From Prorocentrum cordatum (taxonomy: Eukaryota > Sar > Dinophyceae > Prorocentrales > Prorocentraceae), in assembly GCA_963575745.1 (NCBI GenBank), contig CAUYUJ010004570.1, forward strand, positions 104,264 to 168,263: a stretch of DNA of 64,000 bases. The letters run 5' to 3'. Shown one piece after another: positions 1,816-54,852 of this stretch. Both the position numbers and the translations under genes were made by a program. Within the stretch, counting starts at the first letter, position 1; the number at the start of each line of letters is the position of its first letter. The notes beneath the pieces are model-generated. The model was not told the origin of the DNA and did not search any database. It saw only the letters and a list, made by a program, of their open reading frames with translations.

Positions 1816-2877
1816 TCAGGGATACGGTGGTGACATTTCTTTCGCGACACAGCGCAGCTGCAATATCCTCAGCGTCAGCCTCGCGTGTGCATGGCCGAGC
1901 CCGTCGATGTCGCTGAGGGCCGCATCGCAAGACTGCAGCAGCAACCACTCTTCGGCCGAGCGCAGCTCGCCTCCCAGCCGTGGCGCCGCCGACAGCAGCC
2001 GCGCAAGGCTGGCTATGGCGGGTGCGTGCGCCCGCTGCAGCAGCAGGCGAGCCTCGGCGCTGGCGGGGTCCCAGAGGCCAGGCCCGAACAGGCCCGCTGC
2101 TGCGCACGCGGCCTGCTCGGCGCCCTCGGCCTGGCCCCCGGCGGCGGCCGCCCAGGCGGAGCGCCGCAGCAGCCCGAGCGCGCGGCGCGCAGCTGAGGCA
2201 CTGCCGCCCCGCTCACCGCCGCTGGCCGCCGCGAGGCAGGCGAGCGCGCCGGGCCGCGAGCCCTGCGACAGCAGCAACCTCAGCGCGGCCGCCCAGCGGT
2301 GCGCCCGGGCGCACGAGCTCACGGCCGCACTGCTAGTGGCGGCGGTCGGCTGCAGCGCCCAGACTGGCAGCATCATCAGCAGACGCAGTGCTGCGGCCCA
2401 CTGCTCCCCCGAAGCGCACGCGTGCAGCGCGGAGTTGACCCCCACGACGCTCGGCGGCCCACGCGCCTCCGAGCCACTGGCCAGCAGGAGCAATGCCCAC
2501 TGCCAGCTGCCGCCCTTGGCGCAGGCGCTGATGGCGGCGTTTCGAGAAGTGTGGTTGGCCTCCGGCATCGCGCCCAGGAGCCACAGCGCCAGGCGCCAGA
2601 CGTGACCCTTCTCGCAGGCGCTGATGGCGGCGTTGTAAGCCACGACGTTGGGTGTGGCTCGCTCCCTGCGGGCACGCTCCAACGTTGCCAGCGCCCGCAG
2701 CCACTGGTGGCCCCGCTCGCAGGCGCTGACCACCGCGCCCCAGGAGGCCGCGTCGGGCTGCTGCCGCAGCAAGCGCTGCTCCTCCACGAGCCGCAGCGCG
2801 AGGGGCCACTGCCGGCCCCTGCCGCACGCGCTCACGGCGGCGCCCCAGCTGGCAGCGGTGGGCTCGAGCCGCTGGGC
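1816..2877 (-). CDS. Pentatricopeptide repeat (PPR) protein, 3' exon
   Basis: Encodes the C-terminal part of a PPR-like protein. Successive ~35-residue helical repeats carry the motif seen in dinoflagellate PPR proteins: ASWGAAVSACGRGRQWPLAL, ASWGAVVSACERGHQWLRAL, VAYNAAISACEKGHVWRLAL, then NAAISACAKGGSWQWALLLL and NSALHACASGEQWAAALRLL, with weaker repeats after that. PPR proteins usually bind organellar or nuclear RNA in a sequence-specific way; the target cannot be told from this sequence. The exon starts after an acceptor ending CCCCAG and begins GCCCAG in frame with the upstream exon ending at 3497. The stop is TGA at 1816-1818, after EMSPPYP. GC is very high, unlike the repeats around it. 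Family assignment is firm; the exact 3' end is less so. Confidence 0.8.
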   Translation of the reverse strand, partial: AQRLEPTAASWGAAVSACGRGRQWPLALRLVEEQRLLRQQPDAASWGAVVSACERGHQWLRALATLERARRERATPNVVAYNAAISACEKGHVWRLALWLLGAMPEANHTSRNAAISACAKGGSWQWALLLLASGSEARGPPSVVGVNSALHACASGEQWAAALRLLMMLPVWALQPTAATSSAAVSSCARAHRWAAALRLLLSQGSRPGALACLAAASGGERGGSASAARRALGLLRRSAWAAAAGGQAEGAEQAACAAAGLFGPGLWDPASAEARLLLQRAHAPAIASLARLLSAAPRLGGELRSAEEWLLLQSCDAALSDIDGLGHAHARLTLRILQLRCVAKEMSPPYP

Positions 2878-3496
2878 CTGGGGAAACCACAGGTACGGAG
2901 TCGGGCGCGGCCTAATTATCCGACCCCTAGCAAGCCACCCCCTTCCGTGGCGTCATTCTCGCCTTTCGAGCTCCCTATCGCTACTCCCCCGACCTCTTCC
3001 CAGGGTGCGTTCTGACCAGACGCTCGAGGCGAATCTGGCCGTGGCGACGATGGCCTCCTGGGAGGCCCAGAAAGGCGATAACGAGGGACGGGTCGCTGTA
3101 ATTATCGATACCTCTTTCCTCCTGGGAGGCGGCCCGAGGGTCTGAACTGGATTGGGCCCCAGAAAATCGATCAAAGGGGGTGGGGAGGAGGATGAGGAAG
3201 ATGAGGAGCAGGAGGAGGAGGAGGAGGAGGAGGAGGAGGAGGAGGAGGAGGAGGAGGAGGACGAGGAGGGGGAGGAGGAGGAGGAGGGGGATGTGCCAAA
3301 TCGGCTCACAATCGGTCCTTGGACCCCTGTCGGCTTCCATCCGGTGCAGCCTTTCCGCCCGGCACTGCAGCTCACGGTCCTGGGGCCCGCAAGCGGCCCC
3401 CGGGAACAGGCCTTCGGACCTCGCCTCCCCCCCTTCCTGCTGGCCGGACCCGGTGTGGGGCCACCTCAGACCCCCAGACGGCTCCAGCCCGAGGGC
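2878..3496 (-). other. PPR intron holding a (GGA)n tract
   Basis: GC-AG intron between the two PPR exons. About 3182-3292 is an almost pure GGA tract (plus strand). 3000-3090 resembles a motif near 39050, 43200 and 49830 (CGTGGCGACGAGGGCC-like followed by CAGGAGGCCC), so the intron is made of dispersed repeats. Confidence 0.6.
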
Positions 3497-3680
3497 CTGC
3501 AGGAGGCGGAACACCGCCAGCGCCTGCTCCCAGCGCCCTGCGCGCTCGCACCCGCTGATGGCCGCGTTGAAGAGCACCGCGTCGGCCTGCGCGCCCGGCT
3601 CCCGCAGCAGCCCACCCAGCAGCTGCAGGCCGCACTGCCACGAGCGCTGCCGCCCGAGGCGCGAGACCGCCTTCGTTCGG
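3497..3680 (-). CDS. PPR protein, upstream exon
   Basis: Encodes one clear PPR-type repeat (ADAVLFNAAISGCERAG, then RWEQALAVFRLLQ), preceded by a Leu/Gln-rich helix (WQCGLQLLGGLLREP). The donor is CTGCAG|GC at 3497/3496. Joining it to the acceptor at 2878 gives FRLLQ-AQRLEPTAAS, which continues the repeat register. Both exon ends lie on codon boundaries, so this is a GC-AG intron of about 620 bp. The 5' limit near 3680 is approximate. Earlier exons must exist but were not recognised, so the gene is partial. Confidence 0.65.
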
Positions 3681-17031: not shown

Positions 17032-17077
17032 TGAAGATCCTGCAAGACCCTGCGATCTGGCTGACCCCCGTTTGCAT

Positions 17078-17237
17078 TAGCTCGGGCATGTCCCCCTAGA
17101 GGCGGATTTTGGACGAAAAATAAGAGGATACCCCCAACATTCCCCCAAATAGTCAAACACAATATAAACAAATCGTCCCCAGACATTTTTTGACTATTTT
17201 GGAATATTCCTCCTGTAGAGGGACAGGCCCGACTCAA
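17078..17237. repeat. TIR-A element (introner-like), copy 1
   Basis: Ends TAGCTCGGGCATGTCCCC and GGGACAGGCCCGACTCAA are inverted repeats. The interior has AAATAGTCAAA and CGTCCCCAGAC. Flanked by CGTTTGCAT (17069-17077) and CGTTTGCCT (17238-17246), an 8/9 match read as a target-site duplication. Confidence 0.85.
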
Positions 17238-22400: not shown

Positions 22401-22552
22401 TCGGGGTGGGAGGCCGGTCCCCGCGAGGGAGGGGCCGAGCGCTCCAGGGGCCAGCGGCTCCGTGCCGCCAGAGCGGCGCCCTCTCGACATGCCGGGTGGA
22501 GTCCGCCCCTGCCCCGCGCGCGCGAGCGCCATCGGCCAGCGCAGTGATACCT

Positions 22553-22731
22553 TCAGGTCGGGCATGTCCTCCTCCAGGCGGATTTTGGAGGACGAAGGAA
22601 CAATAGCCAAAACAGATTCAACAACACATCAAGACAAGCATAGTTTAAAAAATCGAAACAGCGTCCCCAAACTATTTTTGACAATTCTTGAATCTTGAAT
22701 CTTCCTCCTGTAGAGGGACATGCCAGGCTTA
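22553..22731. repeat. TIR-A element, copy 2
   Basis: TCAGGTCGGGCATGTCC at the left end; right end CTCCTGTAGAGGGACATGCC then AGGCTTA. Flanked by a perfect 9-bp duplication GTGATACCT at 22544-22552 and 22732-22740. Confidence 0.9.
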
Positions 22732-36020: not shown

Positions 36021-36037
36021 AACACTACGGCTGGCTT

Positions 36038-36149
36038 TTGGTCGGGCATGTTCTCCTACACGCGGATTTCGGAAGAAAATCAGGCACTAGTCAACCTCCA
36101 TATTCTTCAAACATCGTCGGCATACATATACATATATATATGCATATCT

Positions 36150-36188
<39 letters not shown>

Positions 36189-36265
36189 TCATTGAACACA
36201 TCGTCCCAAACCATTATTTTACCATTCTTGAATCTGCCTCCTGTAGAGGGGCATGCCCGGCTCAA
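36038..36265. repeat. TIR-A element, copy 4
   Basis: Left end TTGGTCGGGCATGTTCTCCT, right end GGGGCATGCCCGGCTCAA. Duplication GGCTGGCTT (36029-36037) / GGCTGGCTC (36266-36274). Contains an (AG)n run at 36151-36186. Confidence 0.8.
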
Positions 36266-38985: not shown

Positions 38986-39157
38986 TACGTGTGGTCGACA
39001 GAGAGATACCCATACCGCAGGAAGCGCGGGCCTCTGAGAGGGATGCGCTCTGCCCAGGATTTCGCGGGGCGAGTCCTCCCGTGGCCACGAGGGCCCTCCA
39101 GGAGGCCCCCCAAACAGCGAGAGAGCGGGCCAAAAGAGGTACCCACCTGCTCAGAGT

Positions 39158-39316
39158 TAGGTCGGACATGTCCCCCTGGAGGCGGATTTGGGGCGAAACC
39201 CTGAACAACTAAAAAACATACCCCACAATAGTCAAAACAGATTCAAAACATCGCCCCCATACTATTTTCTGACTACTTTTGAATGTTCCTCCTGTAGAGG
39301 GGCATGCCCGACTTAA
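39158..39316. repeat. TIR-A element, copy 5
   Basis: TAGGTCGGACATGTCCCCCT left, TAGAGGGGCATGCCCGACTT right. Flanks GCTCAGAGT and ACTTAGAGT match at 7 of 9. The 100 bp to the right read ELRALEAKRKGTSLEKRQAQ on plus, a possible exon. Confidence 0.8.
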
Positions 39317-44190: not shown

Positions 44191-44211
44191 CCTGCTCCGA
44201 ACCTCGGCCTC

Positions 44212-44355
44212 CCCCTCCGCCAGCGGCTCCGCCCGCGCCCCCGCGGCGCCGGCCCGCAGGGTGCGCTCGGCGCGCTGGCGTGCCGCCTCCGAGGGCGGGA
44301 GCCCCAGCAGCCGCTCGACGCGCGCGAGGACGCTCGCGGGCGACGCCAGCAGGTC
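44212..44355 (-). CDS. Sulfotransferase exon 8
   Basis: Begins after GGGAGAG with GACCTGCTG, completing YEDLLASPASVLARVERLLG, LPPSEAARQRAERTLRAGAA. The 3' limit is uncertain because an R1 repeat abuts it near 44200. No stop codon is seen. Confidence 0.7.
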
Positions 44356-47300
44356 CTCTCCCAGAGGCCCGGGCCCCCTCGCGCCGTCAGACAATCACGA
44401 CGGGAGGGTGTTCGAGCGGAGCGAAGAATGACATAAACGTACAAACTCGGAGGTCCGCGCGGATTTCTTGGATCCGCGCCGGACGCCCCTCCCTGGCGCG
44501 CGGAGCGCGCCAGGGGCGGCGCTGGAGGCGCCGCCAGGGGGCCCCAGCGCGGATGCGAGAAATCCGCGCGGACCGTCGAGTCTTTATGTTTATACGTCAT
44601 TCGTCGTTCCCCTATAGGGAGAGTGTTCGCCATTTTTCGGCCTCCGGGGGCCCTCACTGGGCCTCGAGAGCGTCAAAAAACGGCTCCAGGTGCCCCCGGG
44701 GAAGGGGCCCAGACCTCTGGGGCCAGCGTCGCGAAAAAGCACGCTTCCCAGCGCAGCCACTCGACTTCGGCGAGGACGCTCGCGGGCGACGCCGGCGGGT
44801 CCTCGCCTATAAACCGCAGCCAGCGGAGCAGAAAGCAGACCGTAGGAGCTCGGCCACGAGAAACCTTCCACAAGAGACCCAGCCCCGAGACCTGAGAGCC
44901 CAGAACGCCCATGGATCCTTGGCGTGGGAGCGTCACGCTGTCCATCCCAGAACCATTCGGCACCCAAGGAACCCAGGGCACCCTGGAGGCAAGCATGGTG
45001 TTTCTCGGCATGGGTTTCCATTGTACCCCTCATTAACCCTTGTATCTGTTTGTCCACGGGATTGAACGCGCCTCATTTGCCACAACAGGCGGGGAGGCCG
45101 AACTGTGGCATCCCCTCCAAAAGCCCTATCGTAGCGCTGATCTTCATCTCATGCATAGCACCGTGAACAATCCCATCCTGACATCGATATCACCAGGACA
45201 AAGTTAACACTCCGCCTGGACCCCGAACTTCGTCCCCACGGGATGATTCTCACCAGTGTGAGGTTAGGCTCAGATCCCCTCGCGCTGTGTGAGAAAGAAC
45301 ACCACGACAGGAGGTGTTTTGGTATTCGTTGGCCTCCGCGGGCCCTTACCTGGTCTCGGTAGCGTCAAGAAACGACTGGAATTTTTCCAGACCTCTGGGG
45401 TCGGCATTGCCCTCTCCCACAACTGCAACCCGCGGCTAATAAAGCATCCCCCCTTCCTTAACCCTTGTATATCTTTTCCACGGGCTAATGTGGCTTCATT
45501 GCCACAACAGGCGGGGAGACCGAACTTTGTTTTATCCTCTCCAAAGTTTCTATCGTAGCTCTGGTCTTCATCTTATGCGTAGCACCAGAATTACTCTCAT
45601 CCTAATAACGAGATCTCTGGGACAAAATTATCACTCCGCCTAGACCCCGAACTTTATTATCACCAAGGGATTATTCCCACCAGTAGAGGGTTATGCCCAA
45701 AACTCTTCGCGCTGCGAGCGAATCACGACGGGAGGTTTTGGGTTATTTTTGTTGCGCCTCCGCGGGCCCTTACCAGGCCTCGGGAGCGTCAAAAAACTAC
45801 TCGGGATGCCCGGGGAAGGGGTCCAGACCTCTGGGGTCGGCATTGCGAAACGATCCAGATGCCTGGGGAAGGGGTCCAGACCTCTGGGGTCGGCGTTTTG
45901 AAAAACCACGACGCTGGGGGTCTGGGTCGTCAGGCCCATCCTGAACCCTGCAGAAGTAGGCCCAGGCAAGGGGCCAGTGGATATGTGTATATTTCCGTCG
46001 CCTTATCTCAGACGTGCTCGCGCAGTGACCAAAATCACGACAGGAGGTTTGTCGCGATTGTGTCGGATTTTCGACAATATTCGCTGGTTCTTGAAGGTTT
46101 CCCAGCCAAGGGATGCCCTTCAGCACCTGCGCCTCGCCGAGAGCGTTCCGGGGGTGCCCGGATCGTCCCGAACGGAAGCCGGAGACCCGAATTACGGCCC
46201 GAACATCCTCGTCGTGGAAAACTCACGACGGGATTTTTGCTGGCAATTTTCGGCCTCAAGGGGCCCTCGCTGGGCCCCAAAACCGTCAACAAAACTGCTC
46301 GGGATGAACAGCTGGCCCTGGGGAAAGGGTCGGAGCGTCCGGGACCGCGTACGGAACAGATCAAGGCATCGGATGTCTGGGCTCGGAGGAAGGACAAGCA
46401 ACACGGCACGAGCGCGCAGCCATCGTGCTACCACGAGGGACGCCGGTAAAGGAACGAGGGGGCTCTTGCGCCCACGGGGATCACCGGGCACACGAAAAAG
46501 TTTCCCAGCCTGGATCTGAGGAACGGCCCGAAGCCCGAGCGCCTCCCGAGCCCAAGGCGGTCCTTACTGCAGCGTCTTGGCTGTGAGCTGTCGGAGGTCC
46601 GCGCTGCTCTGTCTGGGGTCGGCGCTGGGCCCCCGCGTCGATCGCCAGGTGCGCCAGGGGCGGCGCCAGGGGGGAGCCAGCGCCGATCCAAGAGAGCCTC
46701 GCGGACCTCCGCAGGATTGTGTGCATGCGTGCGGTGCTGCTGTTGTGCTCTACTTGTACTAGCATTGTTAGCATCATCAATATTATGATGGTGGTGAACA
46801 TTACTATCTTCTACGACTGTTAGTCTTAGTAGTTGTATTACTATGTATGTTTAGTACCCGTATAACTAGCACTGCTATGGTTACCTAGCAGTGCTACTAT
46901 CGTCATTCCTGTTCATGTTTATGTCATTCGTACTCGTATTCTTATTCGTATTCGTATTAATGAAACTGATGATGATATTTGTCAGTGGTAGTCTTATCCG
47001 TGTTGCCATTGCAATTCAAACTCATATTAATATTCGTATCCCCCTTCTTCTTTTTTGCTACAAACATGAAAATCGTATAAGTGTTCTATGTTTTCGTCTT
47101 TATGTTCGAATGTTCCCAGGTCTGACTCTTCTCCGTCTTCCTCTGTTTCTATTCCTTCGTGTGGGTATTCGGGGTGTCTGTCTTCTTCTTCTTTTTCTGC
47201 CTCTTCTCTGTCGCTTTCCGGTCCTCGTACCTCACCTCCAGCCAGTCGGTGCCGCCCGCGGCGTCTTCGATGCCCTGGCGCGCGGCCAGGACGCTCAGGG

Positions 47301-50300
47301 CCCACTCGGCCAGGCCGCGGGCGAACAGGCGACGCCCCTCGTCGGCCGCGTCCAGCAGCGCCAGGAACCCCTCGCCCAGGGACAACTCGGCCTTCACGAG
47401 CGACGGACAGAGCCGCATCCGTGCCCTCGCGGTCTGGATTCTGGGGCGCGATCCCGCGGATACAGCAGAAGCTCGACCACAAGAAACCTCCCACAAGAAG
47501 CCCGACCCTGAGACCCCAGGAAGTCCATGGATCTTCATCACGCTCTCCATAGCAATATCATCGAAACCCAAGAAGCCCAGGGCACTCTGGAGGCAAGCAG
47601 GCAGGGTGTTTCGTGGCATGGGTTTCCAATCCGCGGTCGCACAGATACGTTCCGCGCGTGGCATCCACGAAACAACAAAAACACATCCGCGGCGTCGCGG
47701 CTCAAAGGTCCTGCCCGCGAGGCCGCGGTCACGGACGTGTTCAGCGAGATCCGACGCCACGGAAAAAAACAGCATCGCATCGCAACGAGCCCTGGACCCC
47801 GTCTTCTTGCGCAGTTCTTTCGAGCTGGATCGATCTGTGATGGTGCCGAGGCCCAAACTGAGCGAAAACGCCCGTTGCGAAAAAATTGTAACGCAATTGG
47901 GCCTCCTCCAGCAGGCGGGCCAACTGGCGCCACTTCCACTCGCCCTTCACGCCGTACCAGGCCGCCGAACTCCCGAATCGCGCCACAGATCGGGCCACCT
48001 TCGAGTAGGGGATCGACTACAGTACTGATTTTCCCCAGAACTTATTTCTGCGCCGAATCTACTAAACATACGTGGAACGATCTACGAGCATTCTACGTGG
48101 TTTCGTGAACCAATCCTGTAGTCGATCCTTGAGCAGGGACCGACAGTGCCGGCATCCCTACAAGTCTAACACGGAATGTTCTCAGAACCCAAACAGGTTC
48201 GACCCGTGTTGGAACAGGACAGTCCCAGCCAGAACGGTTCTCCGACCATGTCGGGCAGACCGCAAGGGGCTCTCAGAACATTCGCTGGTGGGCCTATGGT
48301 TAAGTCGGGCCTGTCCCTCTACAGGGGGATTTTCGACGAAAAAAAAACATACACAAAAAATCCTACAAAAAGGTCAAAACATACTCAAAAAATAGTCCCC
48401 AGACTATTTTTGGACTATTGTTTGACTACTCTTGGGGTATTTTTCATTTTTCGTCGTAAATCCCCCTGTAGGGGGACAGGCCCGACTTCAGCCTATGGGC
48501 GAGCCAGGGCGCTTCGCCACTGCCGGACGATCCCCTGCTCGACGCCTCGAGGCCGTCGCGCAGCAGGTGCACGACGGCGCAGCGGCCGGGCCCCAGGCCC
48601 TCCGCGGCCACGGCGCCCAGGAACGGGATCCGGAAGGCGTGCTCCTAGGGTTAGGTCGGGCACGGCCCCCTACAGGCGGGCTCTGGACGAAAACTTGAAA
48701 GGTAGCCAAAACATGCCCCCAAATAGCCAAGAAGAGTCGAAACATCGTCCCCAGACTATTTGGGGGGCTAGTTTTGAATCTTCCTCCTGTTGAGGAACAG
48801 GCCTGGCTTAATCTCAGGGAGACCAGAAAAAAGGTACTGGTGCCGCTGCTCCCCTAGAGGCCTCCTAGATGGGGATCGTGCCGCATCGCCAATACATCGC
48901 CGATGTACCGGCGATGCATCGGCGATGCATCGGCGATGCAACGGCGACGTCGACGTGGGGAAGGACGGGCTCCACATCGAGCCGCCTGGTCGATGCATCG
49001 GCGATACGGCGCGATCCTCCGGCCCCATCTACTCGGATCCCATCTAGGAGTCCTGGATCCCCAGACCTCTCTGGGGATGCATTCTCTTTGTCCTGACCTC
49101 CTCGCGTCGTGGAAGAATCACAACGTGAAGCTTTTCGCTATTTTCGGCCTCCGGGGGCCCTTGCGGGGCCTCGGGACTGTCAAGCAACGACTCAGGACGA
49201 AAACCCGGTCCCAGGGACGGGGTCCAGACCTCTCTCGGGATGGATTCCTTTTGAAAAGTCGAACCTGGGCCAGAAGATCATCCTTCAAGAGCAATGAGTC
49301 CCGCCAGCCAAAGAAAACCCGAATCATAAGATCACCAAGGGTGCCTTTTCCCAGGTGGCATAAGAACTCTAACAAATCTGAAGAACACCAGGGTACCCTC
49401 CCCGAGACGACCTCGACCTTATGTCTCAGTCCGACTGCACGGCGGACCGATGGGAGCAGCGAGCAGCGGACTGCAGTCGACGACACAACCCGCCAGGCAA
49501 GGCAGCGCACCGCACTGAAACGTGGTAAAATGCAGGTGCAGTCCCAGACATGCGACATCCTGATTTTTCCAGGACGGCGTCCCTGGAAATCCCGACCCTT
49601 TCCCCAGGATCGGCTTGGAATCCCGAGTCGCTGTTTGACGGTCCCAGGGCCCCGCGAGGGCCCCCAAGGGCCGAAAACAGGGAAAAACCGGCCGTTCGGA
49701 TGTTTCAGCGACGCGATCATGTCTGGTGTGTAAACCAGCGTGAGCTTGACAAGGCATGCAGGAGAGGAGCAAGAGGAGGGGCACGAGGCTCTCTCCCCTT
49801 GGGCGCGTCCTCGCCAGGACTCCGAGGCGAACGCAGCCGTGGCGACGAGGGCCCCCCCAGGCGGCCCCCCGGGGGCGACAAGACGGGGCAAGGTCGGGGG
49901 CGGCCAAGATCGGGTCGGGCGAAAGAGAGGGATAGCAAAGGGGGGGGGTGAAAATCAGCTCACGTAGCTGATTTTCCTGGCGCCTCCCAGCGCCGGAGGC
50001 GGCTATGTATCGAGGACTGGGCCCCTCGGTGAGGCCGACACCAGCTGCATGCAGCAGATTTCGTATACCCCCCTTTCCCAATCCCCCCCTTCCGCCCGGC
50101 CCGACAAGAGGGGGGCGTCCAAGAGGGGGGGGCGCAACTCATGGCCGGCGGCATTTGCGCCCGGGGGACGGGCCGGGGACGTAGTGAAGTAAGAAGAGGC
50201 GCCATGAAATCTGGGGAGATCTCATGGCCCCCGCCACGAGACCCCCCCCCCCCCTAGTCATCACCCCCCTCTTTGCCGCCCCCGGCAAGGGGGTGGCGGC

Positions 50301-53300
50301 ATCGGCACACCCTTTCCTCCTCGGAGCTCCGGAAACTTCTCCAGGATGACGCAGCGCTCCCTCGCGCCGGCGGCGAGGCTGGCCATATCTCGGTAGGCCT
50401 CTGAAGAAGAAGAGAAAACTGCGTAAACCTGACTTTGTTAGCGCTCCGCGCGGAGCGCTAAAAAACTATGTATATAGCGGCTCATGTTCTTCGACATGTC
50501 CCAGTCGGCCTCTAGAATCATAATAATAGTAGTGACAAAAAAAACGCCTAGATTTGTGGCGCTCCGCGCGGAACGCCGCAAATTTCTGTTCATGGTTTTT
50601 GTTTTGTTCTTCGACACGTCCCGGTCGGCCTCCCCGATGTGCCGCGCCACCGTCTGGCTTTGGGTCGGACATCCTCCTACAGGCGGATTTCGGAAGAACA
50701 GCGAAACAGGATCCAAACGTATTCAAACATTTTCAAAACTAGTCGAACAATCGTTCCCATACTTTGGCGGCGCGCAGAGGAGGGTATGGGGAGGGGGGAA
50801 GGCTTCCTAGAAGGAGGCTGCTTCTTAGAAAACGCCTGCCTTACATCTGTAGCGAAGGCCCGCGCCTTCTAAGAAGCCTTCCCCCCTCCCCCTATCCCCC
50901 TCCGCGCGTGGCTGAAGACTAGTTGCTTGACTGCTCTTGCAAACTCCTCCTGGACTATTTGGACGATTGGAAGAACAACGGAACACACAATCAAAGCACA
51001 TTCACACAAAGTAGAACACTCGTCCCCATACGATGTTTGAACTATTCTTGACTGTTCCTCCTGTAGAGGGACTGCCCGACCCAAGTCTGGCTCCCGCGGC
51101 CCCCGTCCGCGGCCACGGCGGCCAGCGCGTCCTGCGGCTGCAGGGCCAGCCTGCCCCGCCGCTCCGGCGCGCGCACCGACCAGACGTCCAGGGCGGGCAC
51201 GGCGGGGACCCACAGCCGCCTGCCGCACCGCTCGTGGCCGATCCCTATCCCCACTGGCAGGGACTCGGCCCCACGGGCCCACTCCCTCCCTCCAAGAGGT
51301 GGGTATACATCAACATCCATACACACATACATATATATATATATACATATATATATATACAGACTAAACATAGATTCTACACGTAAACATATACATGTGC
51401 ATACATACAGGCACACATATAACAAGAACATATCCATGCATACTCACAGATTATCCAAATATGCTTGCCCTGTAGGAGTCCCAGCTCAAAGCTTACTAAT
51501 TGGTCTGCTGGCCAACCCCTAATTCCTATGCCCCCCTAATCCGACCAGCCCTCTGGGCGTAGGTGGTTCCGGGAGTTTCCTCTTCCAACCTCCTTCTTCC
51601 TCTTCGGGGAGGGGTTTACCCCTCCCCCTAACCCCCTCCCCTGGACCTGGACGGGGGGTTTCGCTGGTAGTTGGAGCGTCCAAAACGGCCTCGGCGAGAA
51701 AGCCAAAATCATCGGTTTTACTAGGGTTTTGGCCCCATTTCTTCTTTTATCAATCGCTTCCAAGATGGCCCCAAAGGGCGCCCAGGAGGCCCCAAGAGGC
51801 TTCCAAGAGGCCTCCAAGAGGCCCCAAGAGGCCGCCATGAGGCGCCAAGAAGCCCCCAAGAGGCTCCCAGGATGGTTCCAAGAGGCCTCCAAGAGGCTCC
51901 AAGAGGCCGCCATGAAGCTCCAAGAGACCCCCAAGAGGCCCCAAGAGGCCTCCAACAGGCCCCTAAGAGCCCCCCAAGAGGATCCCAAGCGGCCTCAAGA
52001 GGCCTCCCCGAAGCACCCAAGACGCCCAAGAGCCCCCATTGACCGCCAAGAGACCCCCAAGACGCCCGAAGAGGCTTCCAAAAAGGCTTCCAAGAGGCAT
52101 CCGAGCGGCATTCAACCATCCACCCAGCGTCATCATTCTCCTCATCCCTCCTTTGCTCGGTTCCTCGCCACCCCTTCATCTATCCATCTGGCCTCCTCTT
52201 CCGCCTCATCCTTTGCATGGATCGGCTGTCCCTCTCGTTGCTCCCCCACTTCCCTGATCTCTTGAACTTGTCTGGACATCGTTTCTGGATGGGCTGGTGG
52301 GGATACTTTTCGATCTGCGGCTCCAAGGAAGATTCCAGAGAGCGGGTCGAACAAGCTTGGGGCAACAAACAAGATAATTGCCAGCGGGCCAAAAGCCAAC
52401 GCCGGAATGCACATGCGAGGAACAAAATTAACCTCCCTGGTGGGGATACGCGAAGCGTCAAGAAATCCTATGGCTATGCTTATGCCTATGCATGTCCCAT
52501 TTTTTTCCAATGGCACCCCTTATGTATGCTTGCTTGCTTGCTTGCTTGCGTGCTTGCTTGCTTGCATGCGCGCTTTCTCGCTGGCTGGTTTTCTTGCTTG
52601 ATTGCTTGCGCGCTTGCGAGCTTGCTTGCTTGCTTGCGCGCTTGCTTGCTTGCTTGCGCGCTTGCTTGCACGCTTGCTTGCTTGCTAAGTTGCGGATTCC
52701 AAGCATGCTCGATTCCTCAGATTCCTTGATTTGAATCGTCTATTATATTTGGAGTCAAGGCTGGCTGATATTTGTTTACAAACACCAATGTACAATTTTT
52801 TGTACAAGCATGGTGGGCTCCAGAAGCCCTGGACCCCAATACGTTTTCCTCTCTTGGGGAGCGCATCTTTTGCTTCCGGCGCCTTCTGCCAGCCTTCCGC
52901 TGGCTGGGGCGGCCTCGTTCTACTTCCGCCGCCTTCTGGTGGTGTTTAGGTACCATGGCAGTGGGGATGGGGATCGGCTAGACGATGCTAACGCGTGGGG
53001 CTCGTTGATGATCGAGGACGCAAAAATGACATAAACATACGTTGTCGGAGCTCCGCGCGGAATTTGTGGATCGGTACTGGCACAAGGCCGATCCACGAAA
53101 TCTGTACAGAGCTGCGACATTGTGTCGTTCTGCCGGTTTGTCTTCTTCGAGTTGGGCACGACGTCCGCGTAAGCGCTCAGCACGTCCCCAAGGACGGGGG
53201 CTGAGGAACCATGGCCCAATGGAGGCTGAGATGCCATGGCCCCATGGTGATGGGCATGGGTTGAGATACCTTCGCCACATGGGGACTGGGTTTTGGGGAG

Positions 53301-53778
53301 GGCGGCTGACCTGGCGGGGCTGAGAGACCATGGCCCGATGGGGATGAGGCTCGGTTGGGCGATGCTGACGCCTGGGCTCGTTGAGGAACACGATGTCCTC
53401 GTGAGCGCTCAGTACGTCCCCGAAGACGGTGGTGCCCGACCTGCCGCAGCCCACGATGTAGCACGCCGAGACTTGCTGCCGCTCCTGCACCGGGTCGCTC
53501 GGCCGCCAGGGGATGCTCGGGCACGCCCCGCTGAGCAGGAAGGCGTCGAAGGGCGACGGTAGCAGCGCGTCCGGATCGTAGGGGAGCCAAGGCCGGCGCT
53601 CCGAGGGCGAGATTAGCGCCTCCCTGCCGCCTGCTTGAGCCGGAGCAGCCGGTGCTGACGCAGGTGGGTCCGCGGGGAGAGGTGGCATGGCGCTGGAAAT
53701 CGTTGGCGCCTGGATGCAATGACCTGCGCGCTGGCTGTCACGGTGGCGCGTCGACGCAGTTGTAGTTTTTCCCCACAT
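44212..53778 (-). CDS. Sulfotransferase, eight-exon gene (overall span)
   Basis: Cytosolic/Golgi-type sulfotransferase that would move sulfate from PAPS to an unknown acceptor. Exons on the minus strand are 53372-53778, 51085-51219, 50630-50659, 50330-50398, 48546-48644, 47903-47998, 47224-47391 and about 44212-44355. All joins keep frame. PAPS-binding marks appear in the expected order: the 5'-phosphosulfate loop GCGRSGTT (exon 1), EKFPEHAFRIPFL (exons 4-5), the 3'-phosphate motif HLLRDGLEVARSVARFG (exons 5-6), WYG-KGEWKWRQL (exon 6) and YEDLLASPASVLARV, then ERLLGLP (exons 7-8). Five introns have identifiable GC-AG or GA-AG ends; the one between exons 2 and 3 is a TIR-A element. Introns are filled with repeats. 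No stop was found, so the C-terminus is incomplete. Expression is untested, but the frame is clean. Confidence 0.8.
44417..44612. repeat. TIR-B foldback element, copy 4
   Basis: Left GCGAAGAATGACATAAACGT, CCGCGCGGATTTCTTGGATC; right GCGGATGCGAGAAATCCGCG, TTTATGTTTATACGTCATTC. Flanked by GGGAGGGTGTTCG (44402-44414) and GGGAGAGTGTTCG (44617-44629). It sits inside an R1 copy whose second part resumes at 44617. Confidence 0.85.
44617..44755 (+). repeat. Dispersed repeat R1, copy 6 (split by TIR-B)
   Basis: CATTTTTCGGCCTCCGGGGG, CGTCAAAAAACGGCTCCAGG, CCAGACCTCTGGGGCCAGCG. Its first bases lie left of TIR-B copy 4, at 44393-44414. Confidence 0.75.
44757..44822 (-). pseudogene. Duplicated fragment of sulfotransferase exon 8
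   Basis: Minus strand reads GEDPPASPASVLAEVEWLRW, close to exon 8 (GEDLLASPASVLARVERLLG). It lies in the intron upstream of exon 8, bordered by R1 and R2, and lacks the rest of the exon. Confidence 0.65.
44830..45020 (+). repeat. Dispersed repeat R2, copy 2
   Basis: CACGAGAAACCTTCCACAAG, CACCCAAGGAACCCAGGGCA, CCCTGGAGGCAAGCATGGTG. Confidence 0.7.
45021..45910 (+). repeat. Tandem ~430-bp duplication with R1 copies 7-8
   Basis: 45027-45418 and 45461-45850 are collinear: TTAACCCTTGTAT, GCCACAACAGGCGGGGAG, CACTCCGCCTRGACCCCGAACT, then R1 (GGCCTCCGCGGGCCCTTACC, CCAGACCTCTGGGGTCGGCA). In the second copy the GGGAAGGGGTCCAGACCTCT segment is doubled. Confidence 0.75.
45911..46592 (+). repeat. R1 copy 9 and unrecognised intron DNA
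   Basis: 46203-46350 is R1 (ACTCACGACGGGATTTTTGC, CGGCCTCAAGGGGCCCTCGC, CCGTCAACAAAACTGCTCGG). The rest of this sulfotransferase intron segment is unrecognised. Confidence 0.5.
46593..46740. repeat. TIR-B-related element, diverged
   Basis: GTCGGAGGTCCGCGCTG...GGGGTCGGCGCTGGG and CCAGCGCCGATCCAAGAGAG, CCTCGCGGACCTCCGCAGG form the diagnostic arms; ends decayed. Confidence 0.55.
46741..47223. other. AT-rich intron DNA
   Basis: 46745-47100 is rich in TATTAGTA, TATTCGTATT and TTCTTCTT words, much lower in GC than the exons. No gene on either strand. Confidence 0.5.
47224..47391 (-). CDS. Sulfotransferase exon 7
   Basis: 56 codons: AELSLGEGFLALLDAADEGR, RLFARGLAEWALSVLAARQG, IEDAAGGTDWLEVRYE. 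Acceptor GTGAAG|GCCGAG; donor TACGAG|GACCGG (GA). Confidence 0.8.
47470..47640 (+). repeat. Dispersed repeat R2, copy 3
   Basis: CCACAAGAAACCTCCCACAA, ACCCTGAGACCCCAGGAAGT, CGAAACCCAAGAAGCCCAGG. Confidence 0.7.
47903..47998 (-). CDS. Sulfotransferase exon 6
   Basis: 32 codons VARSVARFGSSAAWYGVKGE, WKWRQLARLLEE. Joined to exon 5 it gives RDGLEVARSVARFG, the usual 3'-phosphate-binding segment with its Arg and Ser. Acceptor CTCGAAG|GTGGCC; donor GAGGAG|GCCCAA. Confidence 0.8.
48130..48300 (+). repeat. Dispersed repeat R6, copy 2, cut by TIR-A
   Basis: GAGCAGGGACCGACAGTGCC, GGAATGTTCTCAGAACCCAA, GAACATTCGCTGGTGGGCCT. TIR-A copy 6 sits at its right edge. Confidence 0.65.
48301..48490. repeat. 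TIR-A element, copy 6
   Basis: TAAGTCGGGCCTGTCCCTCT left and AGGGGGACAGGCCCGACTTC right, with long arms (GATTTTCGACGAAAAA / TTTTTCGTCGTAAATCC). Target duplication GCCTATGG (48292-48299 and 48491-48498). Confidence 0.9.
48546..48644 (-). CDS. Sulfotransferase exon 5
   Basis: 33 codons from EHAFRIPFLGAVAAEGLGPG to RCAVVHLLRDGLE. Acceptor CCCTAG|GAGCAC lies in the right flank of a TIR-A copy; donor CTCGAG|GCGTCG. The join with exon 4 restores EKFPEHAFRIPFL. Confidence 0.8.
48652..48811. repeat. TIR-A element, copy 7
   Basis: TAGGTCGGGCACGGCCCCCT left, CTCCTGTTGAGGAACAGGCC right. It ends 7 bp before the acceptor of sulfotransferase exon 5; the acceptor AG lies in the flank TCCTAGGG. Confidence 0.85.
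48857..49053. repeat. TIR-C foldback element, copy 5
   Basis: GGCCTCCTAGATGGGGATCG left; ATCTACTCGGATCCCATCTA right; central GCGATGCATCGGCGATGCAT. Confidence 0.85.
49107..49258 (+). repeat. Dispersed repeat R1, copy 10
   Basis: TTTTCGGCCTCCGGGGGCCC, GGACTGTCAAGCAACGACTC, GTCCAGACCTCTCTCGGGAT. Confidence 0.7.
49259..49445 (+). repeat. Dispersed repeat R4, copy 4
   Basis: CCTTCAAGAGCAATGAG, GGGTACCCTCCCCGAGACGA, CCTCGACCTTATGTCTCAGT. Confidence 0.6.
49548..49694 (-). repeat. Dispersed repeat R1, copy 11
   Basis: Minus copy: GAAATCCCGACCCTTTCCCC, TTGACGGTCCCAGGGCCCCG. Confidence 0.65.
49695..50039. other. Intron DNA, unrecognised
   Basis: Part of the sulfotransferase intron. Includes GCGAACGCAGCCGTGGCGAC, shared with about 3040 and 43210, and a short palindrome TCAGCTCACGTAGCTGATTTT at 49957-49975. 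Confidence 0.4.
50040..50300 (+). repeat. Dispersed repeat R5, copy 2
   Basis: CATGGCCGGCGGCATTTGCG, GGCGCCATGAAATCTGGGGA, GATCTCATGGCCCCCGCCAC. Confidence 0.7.
50330..50398 (-). CDS. Sulfotransferase exon 4
   Basis: Exactly 23 codons: AYRDMASLAAGARERCVILE, then KFP. The acceptor is CTTCAGAG|GCCTAC and the donor TTTCCG|GAGCTC, a GA donor. Confidence 0.75.
50402..50614. repeat. Two short TIR-B copies in tandem
   Basis: Elements at 50402-50494 and 50513-50614 with core palindromes GCGCTCCGCGCGGAGCGC and GCGCTCCGCGCGGAACGC. They are bordered by three 18-bp direct repeats (50384-50401, 50495-50512, 50615-50632; GAGGCCKACYGRGAYRTG on minus). Together they form the intron between sulfotransferase exons 3 and 4. 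Confidence 0.85.
50630..50659 (-). CDS. Sulfotransferase exon 3 (micro-exon)
   Basis: About 30 bp between TIR-A and the two TIR-B copies. It encodes SQTVARHIGE across the TIR-A junction. Donor GGGGAG|GCCGAC. Confidence 0.7.
50660..51084. repeat. TIR-A element, copy 8, inside the reading frame
   Basis: Ends TTTGGGTCGGACATCCTCCT and TAGAGGGACTGCCCGACCCA. Perfect 8-bp duplication GTCTGGCT at 50652-50659 and 51085-51092 (AGCCAGAC on the gene strand). Splits codons of the sulfotransferase. Contains TIR-E copy 2. Confidence 0.9.
50769..50929. repeat. TIR-E foldback element, copy 2 (nested)
   Basis: GGAGGGGGGAAGGCTTCCTA left and TCTAAGAAGCCTTCCCCCCT right, outer ends CGCGCAGAGGAGGG and CCCCCTCCGCGCG. 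It interrupts TIR-A copy 8. Confidence 0.8.
51085..51219 (-). CDS. Sulfotransferase exon 2
   Basis: Starts after GTGCGGCAG with GCGGCTGTGG, giving EPRRLWVPAVPALDVWSV across the join. Continues RAPERRGRLALQPQDALAAV and ends where TIR-A begins, inside AGCCAGAC. Confidence 0.75.
51220..51769. other. Intron 1 DNA, (CATA)n and unrecognised
   Basis: 51310-51430 is a CATA/TATA microsatellite. 51430-51770 is unrecognised. Confidence 0.4.
51770..52110 (+). repeat. Decamer array CCAAGAGGCC
   Basis: Imperfect tandem units CCAAGAGGCC(C) of about 10-12 bp, in intron 1. Same type as 59690-60900. Confidence 0.85.
52111..52526. other. Intron 1 DNA, no feature
   Basis: No repeat or exon recognised. Confidence 0.35.
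52527..52690 (+). repeat. (CTTG)n microsatellite
   Basis: GCTTGCTTGC units with GCGCG and GCATG variants. Confidence 0.95.
52691..52975. other. Intron 1 DNA with R8 copy
   Basis: 52870-52945: GCTTCCGGCGCCTTCTGCCA, GCCTTCCGCTGGCTGGGGCG; resembles 23915-24010. Confidence 0.4.
52976..53212 (-). pseudogene. Partial second copy of sulfotransferase exon 1 end, interrupted by TIR-B
   Basis: On minus, 53212-53165 reads VLGDVLSAYADVV (exon 1: VFGDVLSAHEDIV). After TIR-B, 53010-52976 reads CAACGAGCCCCACGCGTTAG, matching exon 1's donor region CAACGAGCCCAGGCGTCAGC. The duplication therefore covers exon end plus intron start, in intron 1. Confidence 0.75.
53019..53150. repeat. TIR-B foldback element, copy in exon-1 duplicate
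   Basis: CGCAAAAATGACATAAACAT, GGAGCTCCGCGCGGAATTTG, GGATCGG left; CCGATCCACGAAATCTGTAC right, ending GTCTTCTTCGA. Confidence 0.85.
53213..53371. repeat. GACCATGGCCCAATGG-type short tandem repeat in intron 1
   Basis: Three or four ~40-bp units containing CCATGGCCC(A/G)ATGG followed by GATG and GGTTGAG words. Confidence 0.6.
53372..53778 (-). CDS. Sulfotransferase exon 1
   Basis: Holds the PAPS 5'-phosphosulfate loop in YIVGCGRSGTTVFGDVLSAH (53401-53460), then EDIVFLNEP. The upstream Ala/Pro-rich stretch (ADPPASAPAAPAQAG) may be a leader. ATG at 53778 or 53688 could start it; the frame is open upstream to 53823. Donor CCCAG|GCGTCAGC at 53372/53371. Confidence 0.8.
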
Positions 53779-53827
53779 GCAGTAGATGTCCCCCGTGCAA
53801 TGGTTCGCCCCCCCCCTACGCAAGAGT

Positions 53828-53855
53828 TGCGTACTGTTGCGCGCAACAGTACGCA
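53828..53855. other. Perfect 28-bp palindrome
   Basis: TGCGTACTGTTGCG followed by its exact reverse complement, about 50 bp upstream of the first in-frame ATG of the sulfotransferase. It could be regulatory or structural; function unknown. Confidence 0.6.
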
Positions 53856-54324
53856 GTCAATCAACGATTGCACCCCTCGCCGCCAACCCATCTGCGCCAG
53901 ACCCACTACTCTAGCTCATCGGCTACACGTAAGAGTGACCCTATACAAGAGTGACCTTTGCTGCGGGGCTTCAGGAGAGCGCGGGGGCGTCAAACCCAGG
54001 GGCGCCAGCCGCTGCTGCCGCAGCGCACTCACCGATCGGGATCCCCAATGGGCCTCGGGGATCTTCTGACCTGGGTCAATCCAGACCTGGGTCAGTCAGG
54101 CCTTGCAGAATCCTGCAAAATCCCGCAAGACCCTGCACCCAAACCCGGGACAATGCGAAGGATCCTGAAACATCCTGCAGGATCCTGCACCCAAGCCCGG
54201 GTCAATGCGACCCTGGCCCTGCAGGATCCTGCAAGATCGGGCGCTCTGGCCGACCCCCGTTTGCATCGACCCCCGTCTGAAGGCTCCCGAGCGCCCGCAC
54301 CAAAGGTCACCCCGGCAGAGAGTT
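53856..54324. other. R7 copy and unrecognised DNA
   Basis: 54080-54275 repeats AATCCTGCAA, ATCCTGCAGGATCCTGCA and GGCCGACCCCCGTTTGC (R7). 53935-54000 resembles 3860-3920 (AAGAGTGACCYTWG, CGGGGGCGTCAAACCCA). Confidence 0.5.
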
Positions 54325-54852
54325 CCTTGTATGCGTGACCGCGTTTGGAGCCTGGCAGCTCCGCGCCCAGCGCGGCTCGGCGGCGGTGCCTCTCGAGGCC
54401 CTCACGCAGCTCCACCAGCAGCGGCGGCGGCGGGCCGAAGCTCGCCAGCAGCGCGAGGCCCTGCAGCATGCCCTCCCTGCGCCCGCACTCGTCGCACCCG
54501 CAGCCGCGCTGCCCGGCGCCTGGCTCCATGCGGCGGCCACCTTCTGCTCGAGGAGCAAGAACAAAAACAGGAGCACAAACTTTCTGCGCTCCGCGCGGAT
54601 TTCTCGGATCGGCGCTTGGCCCGCGCGCCAGGGGCGCGGGTCCAGCGCCCGTCCACGAAATCCGCGCGGAGCTCCAAAAGTTTGCGTGCTTTGCAAGTGT
54701 TTCTGCTTCGCTTTGCGGCGAAGGCCCAGGTCGGGCCGCCCGCACTCGAGCCGAAACGGCTTCCGGCGGCTCGACAGTTGTACCAGGAAGCGATGGAGCG
54801 CAGGGAGCCCAACATCTCGCACGGGCGGGGATTGGGGCAGATTGCAGCCCGA
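54325..54852 (-). CDS. Unknown protein, exon pieces split by TIR-B
   Basis: Two minus-strand coding-like pieces flank a TIR-B element. Upstream (54712-54850) reads VGLPALHRFLVQLSSRRKPF, RLECGRPDLGL; downstream (about 54325-54540) reads CGCDECGRREGMLQGLALLA, SFGPPPPLLVELREGLERHR. Both use GC-rich third positions. Not recognised. The CxxC-like CGCDEC could bind metal, but this is only a guess. It lies upstream of the sulfotransferase on the same strand and may be a separate gene. Frames elsewhere in this block are also open, so exon limits are tentative. Confidence 0.35.
54553..54711. repeat. TIR-B foldback element, last copy
   Basis: GAGCAAGAACAAAAACAGGA, GCGCTCCGCGCGGATTTCTC left; GTCCACGAAATCCGCGCGGA, GCTCC, CTGCTTCGCTTTG right. 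Confidence 0.8.

Follow-up and report, generated by a model that had tools for sequence, protein, structure and literature searches.

A probable intron from a MITE copy in a sulfotransferase gene of Prorocentrum cordatum

Introners with an 8-bp target duplication have been described in Aureococcus. Their source (PMC9860276) gives them the signature of a non-autonomous DNA transposon and a splice site within the element end, and reports that they add 12 bp to the coding sequence, 4 from the introner and 8 from the duplication. The same source names Symbiodinium and Florenciella as hosts of introners that draw splice sites from the duplication. For P. cordatum, the genome description (PMC10666404) gives an assembly of 4.15 Gb with 59.7% G+C, in which introns are enriched in introner elements defined by a loose rule: 8–20 nt inverted repeats and 3–5 nt direct repeats at most 30 bases from the intron ends. 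There, GT, GC and GA donors account for 24.7, 51.4 and 23.8%, and the AGG acceptor motif is found in 79.7%. Published work already covers introners in P. cordatum, as well as those with 8-bp duplications in other organisms.

Here we analyse a window of P. cordatum DNA, meaning the whole stretch of 64,000 nucleotides, with 57–67% G+C per 4-kb bin. In it, a copy of the repeat family TIR-A, named e7, interrupts a sulfotransferase gene. We propose that e7 is a MITE copy that probably works as an intron, and that its family does not show the enrichment expected of introners. The window also holds a PPR-repeat gene of at least two exons on the minus strand (1894–3670). Pfam searches of ten coding-like window segments returned PPR repeats in two; the other eight had no match, and among them are two exons of the sulfotransferase gene. 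A repeated motif like MHRRCIGDASAMHRR is common to the translations near 48.9 kb (48858–49047), 43.6 kb and 38.2 kb, which points to another dispersed repeat.

Element e7 within the sulfotransferase gene

The Sulfotransfer_3 gene lies on the minus strand at 44203–54529 and was delineated as exons 0–8 by a Pfam match and ten homologues; exon 8 and the 3' continuation are incomplete. Element e7 (50660–51084, minus strand, 425 bp) is the candidate intron 2. It is an insertion of the TIR-A family with a target duplication, an open frame on both sides and a nested repeat. The exact 8-mer GTCTGGCT (AGCCAGAC on the gene strand) is present at 50652–50659 on the exon 3 side and again at 51085–51092 on the exon 2 side. 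The terminal sequences, TTGGGTCGG/CCGACCCAA, form a perfect 9-nt inverted match with 11 of 12 nt matching, within a longer, imperfect TIR (about 29 nt). An exact 8-mer of at least three letter types together with a perfect 9-nt inverted end, 80–600 bp apart, occurs at only three places in the window, namely e7 and two places within a CATGCATG simple repeat, and gave 0 matches in 20 Markov-1 random windows used as a control. These duplicates and inverted ends bear out the sequence-only reading, which had claimed that a TIR-A element with an exact 8-bp duplication interrupts a sulfotransferase exon.

Removing e7 with one duplicate yields the codons GSQTVARHIGE, just as that reading had claimed, and they are continuous with the ten homologues. 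Thus e7 does what is expected of an introner in one respect, being inserted in a coding exon that is in frame on precise removal. In the alignment, the restored junction ...GGRGSQ|TVARHIGEAYRD... fits P0002 (DGQTVAGAVGAAYRD) as well as P0005 (GDQTVAELMMDAYTD), a transcript product from MMETSP. The element splits the gene at the conserved QTVA stretch, and in the homologue alignment the insertion site corresponds to a protein loop of variable length. The restored protein of 393 aa scores 54.1 bits against PF13469 (Sulfotransfer_3), covering profile positions 3–213 of 216. It shares 42–58% identity with the ten aligned homologues; a protein search found 21 proteins. If e7 were retained in the message, the computed translation would shift frame and stop shortly past exon 2.

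The exons downstream of e7 show no decay. In a per-exon comparison of the restored protein with P0002, exons 0–2 are 56, 61 and 61% identical and exons 4–8 are 52, 58, 70, 55 and 52% identical, that is, conserved to the same degree. The exon 3 of the sequence-only reading consists of only 22 nt (50651–50630), with the next intron directly after it; its 8 residues range from 12 to 62% identity across the ten homologues. No second copy of the gene was found that could make up for a loss: a genome search with the protein gave 8 matches at E<=0.001, every one of them within this gene (105 of 110 candidates scored). The seven remaining introns, positioned from the homologues and the deposited model, fit GC donors (five) or GA donors (two) with AG acceptors and have 3–7 bases in common across each junction.

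Two other introns of the gene show repeated exon sequence. Intron 3 with its edges (50399–50651) contains three versions of an exon-edge sequence resembling GAGGCC(G/T)ACCG, along with two palindromes around GCGCTCCGCGCGGAGCGC, and looks like a tandem duplication of the exon edge plus a hairpin. Inside intron 1, at 53420–52990, lie diverged pieces of exon 1 (GDVLSAHEDIV, NEPR), as if that exon had been partly duplicated.

The TIR-A family and its genomic context

Seven complete TIR-A copies, e7 included, and one degenerate copy are present in the window. Inverted ends and flanks define e1 (17077–17237), e2 (22552–22731), e3 (36037–36265) and e4 (39157–39316); the family alignment and the exon map define e5 (48300–48490) and e6 (48651–48811). 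The eighth copy (35857 to about 36016) adjoins e3 and has a degenerate right end and a recognisable flanking repeat (AACACTACG). Across the seven complete copies, the two flanks agree in 51 of 56 cells over eight columns and in only 12 of 42 and 15 of 42 cells over the six columns on either side, which sets the duplication length at 8.

Two of these copies also lie in the sulfotransferase gene. Element e5 is within intron 5, its duplication starting 47 bp from the donor, and e6 has a duplication overlapping the intron 4 acceptor, with the exon start at either 48644 or 48641. We notice that the present intron 4 acceptor, CCCTAG, falls inside the 8-bp duplication of e6. TIR-A has entered the gene repeatedly, which is no proof that it made introns 4 and 5. 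An exon end at the e5 duplication (CATAG|GC) was considered and rejected, as the homologues put the exon end 47 bp earlier, at CTCGAG|GCG, with the next exon beginning GTGGCC.

We searched the assembly (4,128,499,153 bases in 21,875 contigs) with the 26-nt consensus end. At up to 3 mismatches, this gave 113,499 matches (57,040 forward and 56,459 reverse), whereas the reversed pattern, used as a control, had 0 matches in the same 4.13-Gb assembly. With 8 copies in 64 kb, the window is much denser in TIR-A than the genome as a whole, which averages one end match per about 36 kb. From 90 loci (among 100 listed places, each with a perfect consensus end) and the window, we assembled a sample of 96 paired elements, dropping unpaired ends. 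The elements are mostly 150–170 bp long, and their duplications match at 8 of 8 positions in 37, at 7 in 31, at 6 in 17 and at fewer in 11. Where 7 or 8 positions match (68 duplications), the preferred sequence is N-C-C-T-A-G-G-N, a CCTAGG-like target, with T in 40, A in 43 and G in 40 of the 68 at positions 4–6. Their consensus is GCCTAGGG, which holds the palindrome CCTAGG.

Judged by its sequences, TIR-A is a non-autonomous DNA transposon family of P. cordatum, a MITE: the elements are short, with a TIR of about 29 nt, an 8-bp duplication and a high copy number, and their typical length would not accommodate a transposase. The hAT, P and Merlin superfamilies generate 8-bp target duplications. 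TIR-A agrees with them in duplication length alone. Searches of viral and genome contig collections gave 0 matches each to the TIR-A patterns, with records of the window's own genome possibly excluded. No description of TIR-A was met in the literature searched; this agrees with the earlier statement that the family cannot be named.

To see whether TIR-A makes introns, we scored the coding context across empty-site junctions with a codon model whose small training set comprised 776 codons from the two genes identifiable in the window. At a minimum side score of 4, both sides are coding-like for 3/96 TIR-A sites and 61/755 controls (Fisher p=0.10); at score 6 the values are 1/96 and 36/755 (Fisher p 0.11), and at score 2 they are 8/96 and 150/755 (p=0.005), all from small numbers in a sample biased to perfect consensus ends, with controls from the same 3-kb loci. 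With GC-matched controls, 78 elements were compared, all of them from outside the window and with at least 6/8 duplication matches; they gave 1 observed against 6.7 expected at score 4, 4 against 16.6 at score 2 and 1 against 4.1 at score 6. One-sided coding context at score 6 shows no enrichment either (15/156 TIR-A, 304/1786 controls). By eye, the three top-scoring sites outside the window (L027, L051, L039) revealed no convincing exon, and six-frame joins across e1–e4 gave nothing convincing as a TIR-A intron.

The sampled TIR-A copies do not recurrently coincide with introns in coding sequence. They show no preference for coding sequence and seem to avoid it, like an ordinary transposon under selection. 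The sequence-only reading had called e7 an introner candidate and had asked for a count of copies at intron positions, taking a lack of enrichment as a refutation of the idea; run on the sample, the count gave no enrichment. What stands of that proposal is e7 itself, inserted in a coding exon whose frame is otherwise intact; what the sample does not support is TIR-A as an intron-making family, with 1 of 78 copies in coding context where 6.7 were expected.

These counts bear on the idea that TIR-A prefabricates splice sites by its choice of target. A duplicated CCTAGG would copy AG|G to both edges in either orientation, and AG|G is the dinoflagellate splice consensus. The TIR would supply TTAG|GT as a second donor in the same frame as the acceptor, so that a copy landing in an exon could be spliced at once, and e7, with its weaker target (AGCCAGAC), would be rescued by the TIR donor. 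The consensus TIR start TTAG|GT does sit 6 nt past the AG of the preferred target, a spacing that puts the TIR GT donor in frame with the AG acceptor of the duplication; e7 has TTGG|GT, and by eye a GT is found near that place in 10 of the 14 TIR-A ends of the window. AGG on either strand occurs somewhere in the duplication of 24/62 copies and in 4797/18000 random 8-mers (39% vs 27%). Against the idea, the 62 copies outside the window, read in both orientations, have AG in register in 41/124 cases, AGG in 15/124 and AGG continuing with T, C or A in 3/124. With so few AGG and so few usable GT, GC or GA sites, and with no enrichment of copies in coding sequence, we regard prefabrication as decidedly doubtful.

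Age and splicing of e7

The sequence-only reading had described a complete TIR-A element between the exons. Its ends are indeed complete, but the element is not plain, holding a nested foldback repeat at 50762–50917 (ends approximate; arms 50762–50814 and 50865–50917). This repeat belongs to a separate dispersed family that starts near TTGGCGGCGCGC and ends near GCGCGTGGCTGAA, with copies in other fetched loci (e.g. L008, L024, L032, L077, L091). Within the reach of the joint searches, which are blind to TIR-A/foldback composites diverged by more than about 11%, the left joint has one exact genome match, e7 itself, and one with 3 mismatches, in L091, and the right joint matches only at e7. The match in L091 belongs to a solo foldback repeat, no TIR-A end having been detected in the 901 bases. 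The right 35-nt end of e7 has no other genome match at up to 3 mismatches, a result that bears only weakly on its age.

Given the unique joints, the 35-nt end without another match and the undecayed downstream exons, e7 looks like an old, tolerated insertion into which the unrelated foldback later inserted. The age signals conflict, however, as the identical duplications and the termini matching at 11 of 12 nt are those of a young insertion, and an old insertion leaves them unexplained. Could e7 be a recent or strain-specific knock-out that is not spliced, in a gene still intact because decay has not yet begun? The identical duplications and near-identical termini would suit such an event, as would the rarity of coding insertions among the sampled TIR-A copies, as if these were usually purged. 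A nested repeat with joints found only in e7, an end without a close match and the lack of downstream decay all speak against it, and we consider a knock-out improbable.

A gene that stays in frame despite an old insertion and a second repeat is hard to explain unless e7 is spliced out. Since a DNA transposon sits in a coding exon here and the gene otherwise keeps its frame, e7 probably behaves as an intron. This reading is supported by the single detected gene copy, the frameshift on retention, the conservation of exons 4–8 and the restored QTVA stretch.

Which sites would be used is a separate matter. In the enumeration of junctions, no register of exact removal combines GT, GC or GA with AG. 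The donors first suggested, AG|CC or CAG|AC, would make CC-AG or AC-AG introns, unlike the GC and GA donors of the seven other introns. One way out would be an exact 433-nt excision by an unusual route, with the inverted ends pairing as proposed for the non-canonical introns of Amoebophrya (PMC7789003). Its product is the closest to the homologues, and as single-stranded DNA e7 folds strongly (z -8.0), with much of the fold contributed by the nested foldback. All seven other introns fit standard dinoflagellate sites, however, and exact excision is not required at a site in a length-variable protein loop. We therefore give this route only a slim chance.

Near the ends of e7, 17 in-frame pairs of standard donors and acceptors were listed, although such pairs are common here by chance. 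They include GA-AG at -3 or +3 nt, GT-AG at +6 (51080/50654) and GC-AG at +15 or +18. On the minus strand, the candidate donors lie at 51072–51087 (GA 51087, GT 51080 in TTGG|GTCGGG, GC 51075), and the candidate acceptors, in the 3' duplication, at 50654–50658 (exon start 50658 in AAAG|CCAGAC, or 50654 in CAG|ACGG). A protein search of transcript fragments scored 565 candidates, none at E<=0.001.

The deposited model P0004 ('unnamed protein product, partial [Prorocentrum cordatum]') shows 100% identity across 42% of the query. It joins a GA donor at 51057 to the acceptor at 50400 and skips exon 3, and these coordinates reproduce residues 1–396 of 432 exactly. The donor is 27 nt inside e7, and all other nucleotides of the element are treated as intron. 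Beyond the element, P0004 continues in the wrong frame. It may be that the gene is really spliced in this way, with e7 partly exonised, the frame shifted at exon 4 and the gene damaged. The exact reproduction of the coordinates would favour this, as would the published gene models, which according to PMC10666404 combine transcript-based with other predictions. Most of the domain would then be lost, with 20.6 bits against Sulfotransfer_3 (cut-off 27) compared with 54.1 bits for the restored protein, and the downstream frame would go unused, yet exons 4–8 are conserved. We judge this route unlikely. P0004 is an example of how a deposited gene model may go out of frame at an insertion of this kind.

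The 17 in-frame standard pairs, together with P0004, which assigns everything except 27 nt of e7 to an intron, lend further support to the spliced reading. We favour, with somewhat better than even confidence, a history in which one old TIR-A copy inserted into the coding exon of the sulfotransferase gene and would now work as a spliceosomal intron, the unrelated foldback presumably having inserted into it afterwards. Excision would most likely not be exact at the duplication; it would use standard sites at or near the ends and make a small in-frame change. For example, joining the GT donor of the TIR (51080) to CAG at 50654, within the 3' duplication, would add two residues (TW), and joining the GA donor in the 5' duplication (51087) to AAAG (50658) would add one.

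Comparison with described introners

If splicing were confirmed, e7 would show in detail how an intron can arise from an ordinary MITE spread through the genome, not from a specialised introner family. It would have been tolerated in a gene detected in single copy, though more than 100,000 end matches exist and sampled copies seem to avoid coding sequence. Such a case would help to tell transposons that are spliceable by accident from transposons that evolved as intron makers, a distinction that is an open point in work on intron gain.

The introner elements of P. cordatum (PMC10666404) share with e7 the species, the inverted repeats near intron ends and the direct repeats; they are defined there by the loose rule given above and not through families or insertion sites. 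The non-canonical introns of Amoebophrya (PMC7789003), which are hairpin-ended, resemble e7 in their inverted and direct edge repeats and in having no standard site in exact register. They differ in their 3–5 nt direct repeats and in comprising thousands of RNA-supported introns, where e7 is one case known from DNA. The introners of Polarella glacialis (review PMC11453091) also have a dinoflagellate host, but unlike TIR-A they make many introns per family. Those of Symbiodinium microadriaticum (PMC9860276) have a dinoflagellate host, TIRs and a splice site from the duplication, with 4-bp duplications in place of the 8 bp of TIR-A.

As for the Aureococcus introners (PMC9860276), they carry both splice sites and the family makes many introns. 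In TIR-A, an AG|GT-like donor lies near the ends, the last bases hold no AG, and the sampled copies show no enrichment in coding sequence. What TIR-A and e7 share with them is the 8-bp duplication, the transposon signature, a candidate splice site inside the element end and codons that would be added.
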